From assembly GCA_013368325.1 (NCBI GenBank), contig JAACJK010000066.1, positions 1 to 64,000 of the forward strand: a stretch of DNA of 64,000 bases, read 5' to 3'. Source of the DNA: Ephemerocybe angulata. Lineage: Eukaryota > Basidiomycota > Agaricomycetes > Agaricales > Psathyrellaceae. Within the stretch, counting starts at the first letter, position 1; each line of letters opens with the position of its first letter. The notes under the pieces were generated by a model, which saw only the letters and a program-made list of their open reading frames with translations, ran no database searches and was not told the DNA's origin. Shown piece after piece: positions 23,672 through 32,009 of the stretch. Position numbers and translations under genes: made by a program.

Positions 23672-24811
23672 CTACTGTTTGGGTTTTCGTTCCCTTATCT
23701 TACTGACATTGTTCCGTGCGGCAGCATCCCGAAGCATCTCCCCCTCCTTCCTCCACTCCTTCTTCTCGTGCGCATCGTAAATGTCCTTGTAGTCCACCCA
23801 CCGCTCTTGAATGTCCCGCACATCGCTCCCCGGATCGCGCAGAGGGCCGGCCGCGGTCGAGAAGAGTCCCATCATATTTGGGCGACTGGATGGGGGAGCA
23901 TTCGACTCGTCGATGGTGCCAGGAGGGGCGGGGGCGTCCGGGGGTGGGACGAAGACATATCCGTTGGCCCGATCGATGGCGCGCATGAGGTGCATCATCG
24001 AGGTCTTGTCTTCGACAGCCAGGGTCTCGAATCCCACCAGGCTATAGTCTTCGACGAGCGAGATCATGGCCATGTTGAGTGCGGCGTATTTGGGAGGGAG
24101 GGAGGCGTTGAGTGAGTTTTCGAGGTAGGAAAGGTCTTGAACTTCGGTGTAAAAGTCCAGATTGAATTCTATGGGGGTGTTAGATTGAGCTTCCAGACGT
24201 ACGGTCCACTCACCCAGCTCTCCGTACTGAGAAAGAAGGTCGATCTTGGAGAGTACGTTGATATGTGGTAGTTCGAGATGCAGCATTGCTCTCAACGAGA
24301 GGAGAAGCACAGAGATGTATTTTGAGGCATCCGTGATGTAATGCGCGTCGCAGAGGTGAACTGCAGCTAACTGAATCGTTATCGCGAGTGTAGCTAGACA
24401 ATGGCAGTGAAAACGCACCCTGAATTCTGACTTGGTCAGCTTATTCATGATATGCTTGACGCTGTCGTGGTTAGTACTCAGTTCGACCTGGCCGGGGAGA
24501 TCGAACAGGACGTAAACGTCCGATCCTAGCTCCTTCAAACGTTCCTCAAGCCAGTCGAAGTTGGCTTCGAGGTACTCCATGCAGTACAGCATCCCCCCAT
24601 TGGGCCCAAGACCGTGCGCTTCCATTACACTTTCCAAGGTAATCAAGGATGAAATGTCGACTGCACAAGGGTACGGAATGTTGTCGTTTGCAGGATCCAG
24701 GTTCACGACAGCGACCGGACGGTTCAGGGCAGTGAATAGTTGGTATTTGCCATAGCAGTATGTCGACTTTCCGCTTCCAGGAGCTCCGCAAACGACTTCA
24801 CCGAATGGCAT
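23672..24811 (-). CDS. GPN-loop GTPase 2 (GPN2)
   Basis: Three exons (24419-24811, 24214-24370, 23672-24168) give 348 residues, the usual size for the family. Both introns (48 and 45 nt) happen to be in frame and stop-free, so they are easily misread as coding. Motifs in order are the P-loop GAPGSGKST (residues ~9-17), the GPN loop (GLGPNGG), G3 DLPGQVEL and SKID as the G4 equivalent. EFNLDFYTEVQDLSYL follows the second splice, and a C-terminal acidic/basic helix ends in KIRERKPKQ. GPN GTPases act as dimers in the cytoplasm in assembly and nuclear import of RNA polymerase II. This is a conserved single-copy-type gene; nothing in it looks damaged. Confidence 0.95.
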   Translation of the reverse strand: MPFGEVVCGAPGSGKSTYCYGKYQLFTALNRPVAVVNLDPANDNIPYPCAVDISSLITLESVMEAHGLGPNGGMLYCMEYLEANFDWLEERLKELGSDVYVLFDLPGQVELSTNHDSVKHIMNKLTKSEFRVRFHCHCLATLAITIQLAAVHLCDAHYITDASKYISVLLLSLRAMLHLELPHINVLSKIDLLSQYGELGEWTVRLEAQSNTPIEFNLDFYTEVQDLSYLENSLNASLPPKYAALNMAMISLVEDYSLVGFETLAVEDKTSMMHLMRAIDRANGYVFVPPPDAPAPPGTIDESNAPPSSRPNMMGLFSTAAGPLRDPGSDVRDIQERWVDYKDIYDAHEKKEWRKEGEMLRDAAARNNVSKIRERKPKQ

Positions 24812-25067
24812 GGTCTGGCGAGATGGTGGTTGAGGTGAAACCCTGCAATCAAACAAATCTGGGCGCTTAAATGATTTAAGCTCCGATAGAAATTATATAT
24901 ATTCGTCTTTTCTTGTGACTTCTTGACCAATTTACGAGAAGGAATTAATGTTTTCAAGGGAATAGTAGAGGCAAGATTGAAAGAAATATCGATACTACTA
25001 TATACTGGATGTGCACGACGCCTAGGTTAAAACTGTCCAAATATCGGGGACAGGAGGGGAGGTCGTA

Positions 25068-28000
25068 TTATCCTTCATCCACCGGTGGAGATGGGTCAAA
25101 CAAACGCGGGTTTGACGTCCTTTGGCAAGCATTCAAGGCCCTTTTCCACAGGTCGCTACCTTGGATGAGAGTCGACTCATTCCCCACGATGATCAATGCG
25201 ATCCGTGCTCGGGTCCACATAACATTCAGCCTGCGATGGTCCTCCAAGAACCCTATCTCTCCATCTGCATTGCTCCGAACCGTCGAGAAGATGATGATAT
25301 CGCTCTCTCGCCCCTGGAAGGAGTCCACTGTCGCGACTGGAATGGATGAAGGCACGCGGCTCTTGATCTTTTGAATCTGACCACGGTATGGGGAAAGGAT
25401 GGTTATAGAAGGGGTAGCATTGGACGTTGGCGCATCCTCCAGAGGTCGCAGGAGCTCTACAACTTTTAAAACGACACGACCTGGCCGTCGTTGGTCTTGG
25501 ACCGACCACCGAAGTCCTCTTCATCTGGACATTGGATGAATACAGTCGGAACAATTGATCCATCGCGGACGGGCCAAGGGAACGCCAGCCCCTTCAGGAC
25601 CTCCAGCTTACTTTCGTTGCTCTCCGAGGTTCGCAATCGTCCCTGGTAAAATTCTTGCGATGGGAAGGCGTTGAGGGCTTCCGGAGAGCGATATTGAACA
25701 TCCAACATCGTCTTCTTCAACCCGGGAACATCCTCTTGTGCGTATAGCCTCTCAAGCAGCGAAACGTCGGCTTCGAGAGCCATTCCCATCTTCCGCACCA
25801 TCGGCCTTAGCTGGACGCTGTACTTGGATTTAGTAGCGATCCTTTGCAAACTGGGGCCGTAATAGACTCACTGATCCCCAACCATTATGCCTTTCTTGAT
25901 CCCTTTGACGAAGGGTATGAGAGCGCACGGCTCGGTGATCTGGGACGCTTCGTCGATGATGGCAATGTCGAAGTTGAACTTTCGCAATATCCCAAGACCA
26001 GCACCTGCGCACGTCGAAAAGACGAGAACTGCTTTCTTCACCCGCTCCATGGCCTTTTTCTGCAACTTCTTGTTTTGATTCAGGTCGCCGCCCAGACGGT
26101 CGTTCAAGGTGTACTGATGCAGATCTTCGTTAACCTTGAGTTGATCTGTGGCCACTCGGAGTATCTCATCCTCAGACACAAGTTTATCTTGAGCATTGAC
26201 GCGAATGAACCGCTCGAGAACGTTGTCGACGGCTGTGCGGAAGTTAGTTTGAGTATTCTCGTACACAATTCTCAATTTCCTATGGTAAGAGACTGACCAT
26301 TATGCGTAGAAGCTGTCATGAGAATTCGGGGACGCTTGCCCTTATCAAAAGACATGAGGATGCTACGAAGAATCTGGACGACCACAGTCGTCTTTCCAGT
26401 ACCTTTAAGTATACGAACGGATTAGCTATGTTCCTGAAATAGTGGATGTGTCCAAGCTCACCAGGCGGGCCCCATATAAGCGAAAGTCGTGCGTCCCAAG
26501 AACCAATGGCGAGCATCTGGCTATCATTCAGTGTAACGTCAGATGGTACGACGACCTCGTGGCCCTCATCGAATTCGAACCCTTCTACGTCCTCGTCATC
26601 TGAGCTGTCGACATCCTCCTCTCCATCGGACCCGATAACCTTCTCCCGTTCCTTCCCTTTGCGCGCTCTCGGTGCTTCATCAGTCTCCTCACCATCGTCC
26701 GAGACAGATTCTGGGTGCGTTCGTTGGGAGTCATCCCCTGTGACGAGATCGTAGAAGCGACAGCAGGTCCATTTTTCAGTCATGAGAGTTTTGAGGGCAT
26801 CAAGCATCGCTTGCGATGTCGCTACACGGTCGTCATTAGAATGGAGGTAAGGGAGGGTTCAAGGCATCAGACTCACCAATACTACCTGCAGAGTACACAA
26901 GCCAGTCCATATGGTTCAACTCCGGAGGCGCGGGTTGCATGAGTTTGAAACGATACTCCCCTCTGTTGGCTACGATAACTTGGCCATCGAGTACCGGCGT
27001 GTTGATGAACTGGTTATCAGGCTTCGAAGTGGCCTTGAATCGGACATGGGAGTGAAGCCGGATCGAGTGCTTGGCGTCAACGCGAATATCGCCTTTGATT
27101 GCGTACGGAGACTCGGATGTAGATGCAAAGAACAGCGTAACCTGGGCAGGAGGTACAGCCTGTTTCGCTCTCGGGCGGCCGTCCTCGTTACATGGGCATT
27201 CGTCGGAAGCTTCTTCTGCACGATCGAAGACAATGTTTAGGGCGTGCTTGTGTACGTAAACGATTTCGTTGGGAAGGGGTTGGGGGAGGTAATTCAACCT
27301 GCTTTCGTGAAGAACCAGGAGCGCCTCTTGAACGAGAGTCTTGGCCCGAACTGAAAGTGAGGTAGTCATGACGAGGTCCATGTAATCGGCAAGCCTGATG
27401 CTCGCTATCGAGCCAGCTACCTTTTCGAGAGCAACCAGAGCAGCGATACCGGTGTCGTTCGCGGACCGTACGATGGCCTGGACAATGTTGAGGGTTAGGT
27501 CCCACTCCAACGATGCGATCTCTGGATGTAGATAGAGCTCATCCGTCGGAGGAAAGCATCTCAGAAGTACGAAAACGAGAGCGGGGGAGCGCTGCAGCCA
27601 TTTAGCAAGGAATTCTGGTTCAGGAAGCTCTCCCGATAGGGAGTGCTGAAAAACCAAGAATAGCTCGTCATCGGCGTGGTAAGCGATGCAGAACTCGAGG
27701 ATACCATCGAAATCGTCGATGGAAGCGTTGACTAAGGGTCGTTCGATGGTGTTCTCGGTGTGCTGCTTTCGCAGCTTTCCAGGAGGCAGGACGAGGTCCT
27801 TAAGGTCGGGGTAGAAAACGTCTTTGATGATACCCAGGAGTCTACGTTTCTGTCTCCATTCCTCCCTGAGCCTATGATTCTCCTCCTCGGAGATCTCCTC
27901 GCCCTCAGGCTCTGCAAACGGGGGATCCCAGTCCACATCTCGAATGTTGTTCAATCGATATGGGACCGCTTTCCTGGGAAACCGGCGAAGCTGCTCCTCT

Positions 28001-31000
28001 GTAGGGACGCTGAGAAAGGCACCCTCAGTATACCGCCGATAAATCGACTAGAATAACTCACTGGTTATACCACATATCGAAAAGCTGTTGAGCTACGCGA
28101 TCCTGGTTTGAGACGACGTGAAGTTCGATGTTCATCACTGCCGTGCGGTTGATTCTGCCAATTTGCTGAAAAGACGGGTCTTAGGTTAGTTATCGAAGGT
28201 GTGATTATCCCTGTCAAATCGGGGCATACCCTTTGTACAGTACCAGATATCTTCTGGAGAGCGATGCTGGTAACCACCTCCGATTGAAGTCCTTCTGGAG
28301 AACGCCTGATGAAGATGAAGGTATCGCCGCGGTGCTTGTTGTATAATTCCATCTTTCCGAAGCTGCAGTGCAGCTTATATCCTTTCGTGCATGGTTTCTG
28401 GTGTGGCAGGGTCGCCCCGGACTCGGAGAGAAAGGACACGACGACGACATTGTCGTTTACTTCTGGGTCTTCATCCCAGGGAATATCGCCACGCATGAAG
28501 ATCCCAACGGCGAACCTCTGATCAGTCTTTATGAAGAGCTAAGTATCAGCGACCGCCGAAAGCTAGAAGTTATGGAAAGGAAGACGCACCCGAATCAATA
28601 AGAGCTTCCTTGTATAGCTCTGTGTTGCTCGCCGAAGGTACTCGAAGAAGGTAGCTTGGCTGTGGACCGTCGACGAGTAGAGCTTTTGCAAGGAAAAGGA
28701 CGAGTCGAGTCCTTGAATCGAAAGATCAGTCGAGGAAAGTATGTCGGACTGAAAGAGGGAGTTCCAGATGTACGGGTAATCGATGCGAGATAGATAGAGG
28801 GTAGATGACATGACGTGTTTCTCCATGGCACCCAACGCCGATACATCGAGCTCGGGGAGGAAAGGGAGCAAATCAAACTTGTGCTTCCGAGAGAACCGTA
28901 GGGCGAGGTCGAAGATCTCGTACTCCGACAAAGCATTCAGCACGTTTTTGCTCTTGAGGAACATCTCCAGAAGCACTTTAGGGTCCTCAACCTCCACCTG
29001 TTGCATTATCGATATGTTTGACCGTTCCTCGAGAAACTTCGCTTCAAAGGCTTCTTCCTGCTCGCGAAGCAGGTCGATTATGAAGGGACTCGAGGGTTCG
29101 GGAGGATGCTTCAACCGCTCTGGCATTGCGATGACGGCGCCATCAACGGATTGAGAATGCAAGGCGTTGAGTTCCTGACATTCTGCGCAGAGGGCACCTT
29201 CGGGGCTTGCTATGGCCCATTTATTATGAAGAGCAGAAACACGGGCCACGCCAGAGCTAGGGAGACGTTCAGTGCGTTGATTAGTCGACAGATATGATCA
29301 TAAGAAGAGGAGTACAAACGTGTTGTATGATGCGAAGTAGGTTGCCAAATCCATCCGAGTGACAACCCTGGCCTTTCGTTCCCTATTCGGAGGGTAATCG
29401 TATGGCTATAGGGGCGTCACGGTGTGTCAGTGGTTAAACTCAGGCTTGATCTCAGCCCAACCTACCTCCAAAGTTCTCGTCGGGACAATATCCGGATCCC
29501 AGCAGACGAAGAACTCATCGCCTAGTAAGGACGTCAGCGGTGAACGCTATGAAACCAATCTATCCCATACCGTCGAGATCACCGCCACTCGTCATCGAAG
29601 GTGCAGGTTTGTGACCTGGCTTGGCCACTGAAGCGAAGACAATGCAATCCACGAGATGGGATAACTCGTCTCTGGCAACCGCGCGTAGCTTCAAAACGTC
29701 GCCTGGTTCGTTGAGGTTTGAATACTGGCAAGGCCACACTTGGAGTTACAATAGCAGAGACGTACCTGGATGGAGGCAGGGGTTCCGAACAACCAACACG
29801 TCGCCGTGAATCGGTGTCGACGGCCCCCGTCTAGCAGTTGTGATACGGATGTGAACTTGGCCCTCCTTAAGCACCTGCAGGGGATCGCATACGCCGTAAA
29901 GCCTTCGCGACTGGTGGATGAGCATGCGCGTTTTGAACTTCTTCGTCTCTTTATCGTGGTGCCTACTCAGTTCGTCCACCTGTAGCTTCTTGATTTCGCG
30001 AATATGCTGATCCGTTAGTCCATCCAAGAAAACCTGTTCCGCAAGCGTATACTTGTCTGTCGAAGAAAGGAAGTCTATCGCAGATGTCACGTTCAGCGTC
30101 GCATCTTGAATCCAATCGAAGTATGCCTGCTGCTTGGCTAAGAACTTGTCGTTGGTGACACCGAGGCTAGAGATGAGGACGACGATGTCGTTGTTGAGGC
30201 GACCGAATGAGTACGGTTTGGAATATCCGACGACTGAGAAGCTATTGTCTCCAACAGCTTTGAATTTCTTCATGCTCGCACGAAACTCGGCCAGGTGGAT
30301 GTGTTCCGTGACGCCGTCACGCATAACGTTCTCAGCGTCCATCTTCGGATGAAGCATCAGAACACCTTTGTACCCTAGGTAGCTTCAAAGGAGTCAGCGA
30401 TTTGGACTGCAGAGATTCCTCAACAACCATACCGAATCTGGACGACGGTGGGTGTGTATCGCGTCCCACGAAAGACGACCTTTTTCTTCTTCGCTACCGT
30501 TATGGCCAGTCTTTTGCTCATCAGACCGCAACCATCGGAGAACACTTCGTCCCCTATCTCAATGTCTGGTATGTCGGCGATGAACTTTGGGTCGAGCTGG
30601 AGATCGACTTGGGCTGATGAGAAGAGGAGTCCAATTCGTTTTGCGCCTGCGATAGAATGAGGTGTGTAGACGATATTGAGAAGAGTGTTCCGACGTACGT
30701 TTCGAAACGTTCATGATTCGACCGTAGTCTCCGAGCGCGTAGATACGTGCATCGAGTTCTTGATCTGAATTAGCCTCCCTCAGATAGCATGATCGTTCGC
30801 GCTGTAAAGATACGTGAGTGGATTAATTGCATCGAGTGGGAGAGACGGGAACGTGCCAGCTGGCTATTACTATGATGGTAGAATCGATATTGCACGCCAT
30901 TGAGCCAGAGGCCGGCCTTGAAAAGGCGAGTGAGGTATTCCGTGACGATCCGAGGTGGATGGTCAGGGAACCTAAACGTGCGTCTGACTCCCAAAAGGAT

Positions 31001-31318
31001 GAATTTGGTGGGGTCATCGGAATGCAGAATGCGGTTGGAGGATATCTTGTCTGTGTCGAGAACGATTCCAGCGTCAGAGAATGTCACCTTGAGCACCCTC
31101 TCGCGTCGCTGAGCGGGGGCCATATACTGGGTGGGGACGGTGAATTTCCATTCCTCATCGGTGGTAGTAGGATGCTCTCGCAGAACGAGTGCCTTCAACT
31201 TCATCTTTCTCTCGATGCTGCTGGGCGACAGAGAGCGGCGATCTGTGCAGCAGAGTCGATCGATAAGGTGGAGGAAGAGAGACCGTGAGATGGGCGCTAT
31301 TGTGGCGCCCATAGACAT
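25068..31318 (-). CDS. RNA-dependent RNA polymerase - SF1 helicase fusion
   Basis: Fifteen exons run from ATG 31,318 (30857-31318, 30699-30801, 30433-30646, 29766-30382, 29571-29702, 29466-29521, 29320-29405, 28590-29256, 28230-28538, 28062-28165, 26877-28009, 26462-26821, 26298-26402, 25872-26232, 25068-25817). Phases match at every junction. RdRP part, residues ~60-600: GVQYRFYHHSNSQL, EVFSDGCGLMS, YTPTVVQIR, YKGVLML, GDVLVVRNPCLHPGDVL, the catalytic DLDGD split by an intron, and the end block ALHNKWAIA...AVDG-like. Helicase part, ~1,380-1,819: GPPGTGKT, TASTHNAVDN, DEASQ, GDHVQLRP, VDSFQGRES, and NVMWTRA as motif VI. Exon 8 is one open frame crossing the RdRP end into the linker, so no stop separates the two. 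The first intron is GC-AG. Exons total 5,459 nt, one short of 1,820 codons, reflecting a one-base shift near 25,468. Likely role: dsRNA synthesis in RNA silencing. Confidence 0.88.
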
Positions 31319-31381: not shown

Positions 31382-32009
31382 ATGAAGAAAGCTATCTATA
31401 TCATCGGTCCTTCTGTAAGTCAAAGGCGAACACTTATACCAGAGACTTTATCTGACTATGGCCCAGTCCACTGGCAAGACGACACTCTGCGAGGTCCTCG
31501 CTAAGCGATTGGGCCTCGAGAGCGCCGCCTACGTCAGGGAGGTAGCCCGTCGTATCATGCGCGAGAGGGGGTATAGCAGAAATACCATCGCAGACTTGCA
31601 GATGCAGCTCGACATCATGGAAGGGCATATCGAAGACGAAGAAAGAGCGATCGAAGCTGCAAACTTGGTCCTGTGCGATAGGTCGGCGATAGACCCAATT
31701 GTCTACGCCATCTTGACGGCGCCGTCAGCTGACGTTGCAAAGCAGCGCCAATCTACACTTTTCAGCCACCCAGCGTTCGAGAGAGCACTTCATCGCTATC
31801 GCGAGAGCGCATCCATATTCATCCTCCTAGCTCCCGTCAAGAGCTGGGTGGTTGACGATGGCGTGCGCTCCATCGAGAACCAAGAGAAATGCTCGGAAAT
31901 TTTCATCCAGGTCTTGAGGGACTTAGGTATACCGTACCGGGTTTTGGGCTCGGATTGCCAGAGCGTCTACGAGAGGATGGTTTTGACTCTTGGGCAAGCC
32001 TATTCTTAA
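31382..32009 (+). CDS. AAA_28/NadR-like P-loop NTPase
   Basis: Two exons (31382-31414, 31467-32009) give 191 residues. The Walker A motif is assembled across the intron: IIGPS joins STGKTTLCE to give GPSSTGKTT at residues ~9-17. The 52-nt intron therefore has to be removed for activity. LVLCDRSAIDPIVYA is a Walker-B-like/lid segment, and VREVARRIM and NQEKCSEIF helices follow. The family comprises small cytosolic ATPase/kinase-like proteins related to the NadR nucleoside-kinase domain; the substrate here is unknown. It is divergently paired with the RdRP-helicase gene. Confidence 0.85.

Follow-up and report, generated by a model that had tools for sequence, protein, structure and literature searches.

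A probable member of the FgRdRP5 family in Ephemerocybe angulata joins an RNA-dependent RNA polymerase to a superfamily 1 helicase

To our knowledge, it is not settled how the RNA-dependent RNA polymerases (RdRPs) of RNA interference (RNAi) locate and open their templates and initiate copying on them. Dictyostelium RdRPs of the RrpA type carry helicase and polymerase in one chain, but that helicase is a Dicer-like superfamily 2 enzyme and lies at the N terminus. The RNA-directed RNA polymerase complex (RDRC) of Schizosaccharomyces pombe, made up of Rdp1 with Hrr1, also has an RdRP working with a superfamily 1 (SF1) helicase, the two being separate subunits. FgRdRP5 (FGSG_09076) of Fusarium graminearum combines RdRP, DEXDc, and AAA domains, has a deletion phenotype, and lies on a branch apart from QDE-1, SAD-1, and RRP-3, according to PMC11237814 (mBio 2024); in PMC4870495, viral small RNAs are predicted to target it. 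Here we describe a gene of the mushroom Ephemerocybe angulata that likewise encodes an RdRP followed by an SF1 helicase, located in a window of 64,000 nucleotides (contig JAACJK010000066.1, positions 1 to 64,000). A preliminary description of this locus knew of no described fungal protein with such an architecture. FgRdRP5 has the same domain order in one protein, with the RdRP followed by DEXDc (1277-1478) and AAA PF13087 (1475-1677) in PMC11237814, which alone among the sources consulted describes the fusion; the accessible portions of PMC4870495, PMC9276528, PMC7763443, PMC4290597, PMC6572790, and PMC9769868 do not. The architecture is thus already known, and the gene described here is probably a further member of the family; FgRdRP5, on the ascomycete side of that family, is its co-linear homologue.

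The gene occupies 25068..31204 of the minus strand from start to stop codon, in 15 exons, and encodes an RdRP, a linker with a predicted TLDc-like fold, and an SF1 helicase; the protein was read as 1780 residues with two unknown residues placed at a frame break in the last exon (coding sequence 31204-25068). The minus-strand model was borne out, as was the 667-nt exon at 29256-28590, which spans the passage from the C-terminal RdRP block to the linker. All 14 intron phases agree as claimed, the introns are 49 to 65 nt long, and 13 of them are GT-AG; the correction concerns intron 1 (30856-30802), which is GC-AG. Support for this intron comes from an alignment of the window with 120 homologues, in which 109 of the 121 rows have an intact junction motif, reading SNSQLR in 88 of those. 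The public protein of the same locus (P0001, D9611_012906) shows 0 mismatches over 1627 aligned residues; its annotation skips intron 1 (30802..30856) at the cost of 13 residues (aa 104-116) and lacks everything beyond the frame break. The domain search suggested earlier placed RdRP (PF05183, 2.8e-100, aa 34-558, 29136..31105), AAA_11 (2.6e-42), and AAA_12 (7.2e-46) in the same spliced protein. Both sets of catalytic motifs are present, and all those named in advance were located. DLDGD is found at aa 468-472, interrupted by intron 5 (29580..29517), and the SF1 helicase core (25068..26552) contains Walker A (GPPGTGKT, 26471..26389, split by intron 12), DEAS (25954-25943), GDHVQLRP (25879..25802), VDSFQGRES (25328-25302), and NVMWTRAR (25226-25203), all on the minus strand. 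The Coprinellus aureogranulatus protein P0002 is co-linear, with 75.7 and 59.7% identity even across the two linker parts, and F. graminearum FGSG_09076 (P0262) aligns in a single stretch over aa 16-1761 at 32% identity. Every motif tested is present in P0004, the orthologue from the laboratory mushroom Coprinopsis cinerea. With a reservation for the frame break, these results support the proposal that this fungus encodes an RdRP and an SF1 helicase as one chain.

The homologue search returned 416 proteins (7987 candidates scored), of which the best 120 were listed; the named rows among these are mushrooms and allies (Agaricomycetes), whose genera we presume to represent Agaricales, Boletales, Polyporales, Russulales, Hymenochaetales, Auriculariales, Cantharellales, and Sebacinales. 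The survey of Agaricomycetes that had been proposed recovered DLDGD, Walker A, and motif VI together in 67 of these 120. Of the others, 18 lack Walker A, 11 lack motif VI, 17 have DLDGD alone, 6 lack DLDGD with both helicase motifs present, and 1 has Walker A alone, counts that describe gene models, in which missing motifs may be annotation faults. A second search, with a nine-row alignment that included two named ascomycetes, Acaulospora, and Tulasnella as query, listed the best 120 of 132 proteins, and 62 of these carry both PF05183 and PF13087 by hand count. They include Fusarium, Aspergillus, Chaetomium, Apiospora, Zymoseptoria, Cladophialophora, Ascobolus, Kalaharituber, and lichen fungi; from P0324 onward the list consists of other SF1 helicases. 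A protein named from willow (P0171, Salix suchowensis) also matches the fused helicase.

Trees of both halves separate basidiomycete from ascomycete rows, and the gene groups with FGSG_09076 in each. The fused rows form one clade in the helicase trees (100; 100/99), within which basidiomycetes together with Acaulospora are recovered at 96 and ascomycetes at 98. In the RdRP tree, the basidiomycetes are supported at 100/100 and three standalone RdRPs of this genome, the only ones from which the RdRP half was set apart, fall outside. Two closely related standalone RdRPs with long open frames lie about 118 kb apart in this genome (C128:1290192-1292158 and 1408233-1410207). The sequences fit a single fusion that predates the ascomycete/basidiomycete split, and the fungal family of RdRP-SF1 helicase proteins is likely ancient. 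The Acaulospora colombiana protein P0136 was considered as evidence of an even older fusion and rejected; contamination or transfer is suggested because the RdRP and helicase trees both place it beside the fused Serendipita row.

The fused helicases form their own clade (100/99). Helicases of the ZNFX1/NFX1 type, with a further locus of this genome (C147) among them, form a separate clade (100/100), and the UPF1 clade (100/100) also excludes the fused helicase; the UPF1 of this genome is found on C120 (93% to C. cinerea P0217). The best match by sequence among solved structures is UPF1 (173 bits, compared with 99 bits for ZNFX1), and modeling places the UPF1/NAM7 and IGHMBP2 helicases closest by fold. 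These helicases appear to share the SF1B core of the fused helicase, but they lack an RdRP and the fused helicases stand in a clade of their own; the grouping of fused helicases with IGHMBP2 has a support of 64. The UPF1 N-terminal families PF09416 and PF18141, listed for the named UPF1 rows, are absent from the 16 Pfam families of the window protein (E up to 0.1, by sequence search). The ZNFX1 family PF25396 found no match in the genome, in a search where the control likewise matched nowhere. The suggestion that the helicase corresponds to Hrr1, the helicase partner in RDRC, is not supported, since fused and ZNFX1-type helicases form separate clades, in trees without S. pombe Hrr1 itself, and UPF1 outscores ZNFX1; the RDRC helicase is reported as a ZNFX1 orthologue in PMC9276528. 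A run of four SF1 (AAA_12) helicase matches was also observed in this genome at C125:2473769-2483603.

A divergent TLDc domain is predicted within the linker at about aa 688-870 (exons 8-10; 28085..28748, minus strand), where the modeled fold matches the TLDc proteins OXR1/2, NCOA7, mEAK7, Skywalker, and Rtc5. Several known TLDc proteins have been found bound to V-ATPase, judging by the titles of structure entries. The fold is predicted to be shared with these proteins, but the match by sequence is below the Pfam cut-off: none of 9 linker cut-outs exceeded the 24.5 bits of PF07534 (the highest scored 17.3 bits, E 0.0046), the cut-out from the window itself gave no PF07534 match, the scan of its own genome drew no hit in the window, and TLD was not among the best 25 of 47 families in a Pfam scan of 28 family members. 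When the linker was compared by hhalign with a TLDc profile built from three sequences, the match was not significant (probability 1.7, E 0.029); among ten further segments in the same comparison, the best two contain the TLDc-like region (E 0.022 and 0.042). Family alignments were the input to two structure predictions, and one of them also supplied the linker profile for hhalign. Between this domain and the helicase core, at about aa 906-1345 (26553..27927, minus strand), the predicted secondary structure of P0127 has a helical region, strands ahead of the core, and an acidic loop, parts that we named ourselves. The available text of PMC11237814 terms two extra domains of FgRdRP5 unique and leaves a TLDc-like domain unmentioned, and a literature search for TLDc with RNA-dependent RNA polymerase returned only papers on other subjects in the text accessible. 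The mushroom spread of the family, its non-Hrr1 helicase, and its TLDc-like domain were not found in the literature searched.

The preliminary description had the frame running without a stop, which fails in the last exon: the frame closes shortly past NDGQV (25492-25478), and the remaining helicase, which includes VDSFQGRES and NVMWTRA, is encoded in a different frame (VLKVVELL..., from 25472), continuity being one base short at 25472..25480 of the minus strand. AAA_11, AAA_12, and all motifs are matched in the same gene, but the break precedes VDSFQGRES. P0001 stops there (...NDGQVVSF) and, being from the same contig, is not independent evidence for the break. The first frame is read as coding up to the N..Q motif at the break because, of the 121 aligned rows, all 93 that have more than 40 residues in this stretch retain the motif. 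Twenty-two candidate introns (26-143 nt) could bridge the break; none was adopted because each deletes the conserved N..Q motif, the residues that follow, or both. Identity before and after the break is 82.9 and 81.2% for P0002, 68.1 and 65.5% for P0003, 67.6 and 64.4% for P0004, 66.3 and 58.6% for P0005, and 66.8 and 55.6% for P0007. Both a recent lesion and an assembly error are compatible with the break.

Exon 13 (26298..26402, minus strand; 105 nt, phase 1/1) is conserved; it supplies the rest of Walker A (TGKTT) and carries the next conserved block, and the acceptor ahead of it is the sole AAG among the 14. Within the 120 mushroom models listed, exactly aa 1376-1410 are missing in 11 (P0027, P0048, P0077, P0081, P0082, P0085, P0092, P0095, P0098, P0102, and P0112), and 12 end at aa 1376-1383 (P0055, P0078, P0091, P0096, P0097, P0099, P0101, P0103, P0104, P0105, P0108, and P0109); the next commonest identical gap of at least 12 residues outside the variable linkers occurs in 3 models. 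C. cinerea has P0004 with exon 13 and P0027 without it. Of 90 rows in the second list (P0234-P0323, compared with P0262), 85 extend past Walker A, 0 stop there, and 5 end earlier; in one row, P0279, 21 of the 36 residues surrounding and following Walker A are missing. Gene finders misled by a weak splice site would account for this pattern as well as regulated splicing would. A larger reading, which we regard as unlikely, is a three-module RdRP-TLDc-SF1B silencing machine, fused before the ascomycete/basidiomycete split, whose motor is switched off by splicing in mushrooms: skipping of exon 13 would drop the Walker A lysine in frame, and retention of the preceding intron would leave a polymerase without helicase.

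We favor, with moderate confidence, a single gene of the FgRdRP5 family in which a cellular RdRP is fused to an SF1 helicase predicted to clear the template for double-stranded RNA copying in gene silencing. UPF1-type helicases move 5' to 3' on RNA. An SF1B helicase of this type would travel in that direction on the transcript, removing proteins and structure, and would deliver the polymerase to the 3' end as the starting point for copying; the RdRP would make double-stranded RNA for gene silencing, and the covalent joint would hold both activities on one RNA. Several points weigh against this reading. The direction of travel is borrowed from relatives, the frame break may cost this strain its last helicase motifs, and FgRdRp5 may lack a critical role in hairpin-RNA silencing according to PMC4870495, which weakens the RNAi part. 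The deep SF1 branches are unresolved, with approximately unbiased (AU) tests rejecting neither fused plus ZNFX1 (p 0.588) nor fused plus UPF1 (p 0.553), and the assignment to a non-Hrr1 helicase comes from trees built without S. pombe Hrr1 or Neurospora SAD-3 sequences. Of 200 bootstrap RdRP trees, only 58% unite the ascomycete rows, the outgroup (the three standalone RdRPs of this genome only) is thin and long-branched, 17 of the 120 mushroom models lack both Walker A and motif VI, and the listing of the best 120 leaves Tremellomycetes, Ustilaginomycotina, and Pucciniomycotina outside its scope.

Those 17 models, together with a Tephrocybe RdRP and helicase that carry consecutive tags and lie on equally long contigs (P0111, P0129), are what could be expected of two genes wrongly joined. 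Twelve of the 17 end inside Walker A, an unlikely gene end, mushroom and ascomycete chains have the same domain order, and the co-linear orthologues P0002 and P0262 make mis-joining very unlikely. Improbable too, though less so, is an RDRC in one chain, with Rdp1 fused to Hrr1. The two activities are those of RDRC, PMC9276528 reports that ZNFX-1 coprecipitates with EGO-1, an RdRP, and names Hrr1 as the ZNFX-1 orthologue, and the AU test leaves room for fused and ZNFX1 helicases on one side of a branch; against it stand the two well-supported separate clades, the genome's own ZNFX1-type locus, and the higher UPF1 score.

Two further explanations are somewhat doubtful yet deserve more weight. 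The helicase could work on the product, trailing the polymerase on the new strand and unwinding or releasing it so that one template is recopied many times; synthesis of the new strand proceeds 5' to 3', the polarity expected of a UPF1-like helicase by analogy with its family and fold matches, but such unwinding would undo the expected Dicer substrate. It is about as conceivable that the break is a true lesion in a decaying copy, leaving the strain an RdRP whose helicase is dead. Both the assembly and the nonindependent P0001 contain the break, and identity falls after it in comparison with P0005 and P0007; on the other side, it is a single break within 5.3 kb of coding sequence, and the nearly unchanged identity to the nearest relative, P0002, argues that it is recent or an error.

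The gene is flanked downstream by an ATP_bind_1 (PF03029) gene at 23672-24892 (minus strand), presumably of the GPN-loop GTPase type, and upstream by an AAA_28 (PF13521) frame at 31419-32009 (plus strand).

If confirmed, the TLDc-like domain would be an unexpected component of an RNAi enzyme. If the reading of one fusion is true, template opening and copying would be coupled in this family, through a UPF1-like motor instead of one of the Hrr1/ZNFX1 type.
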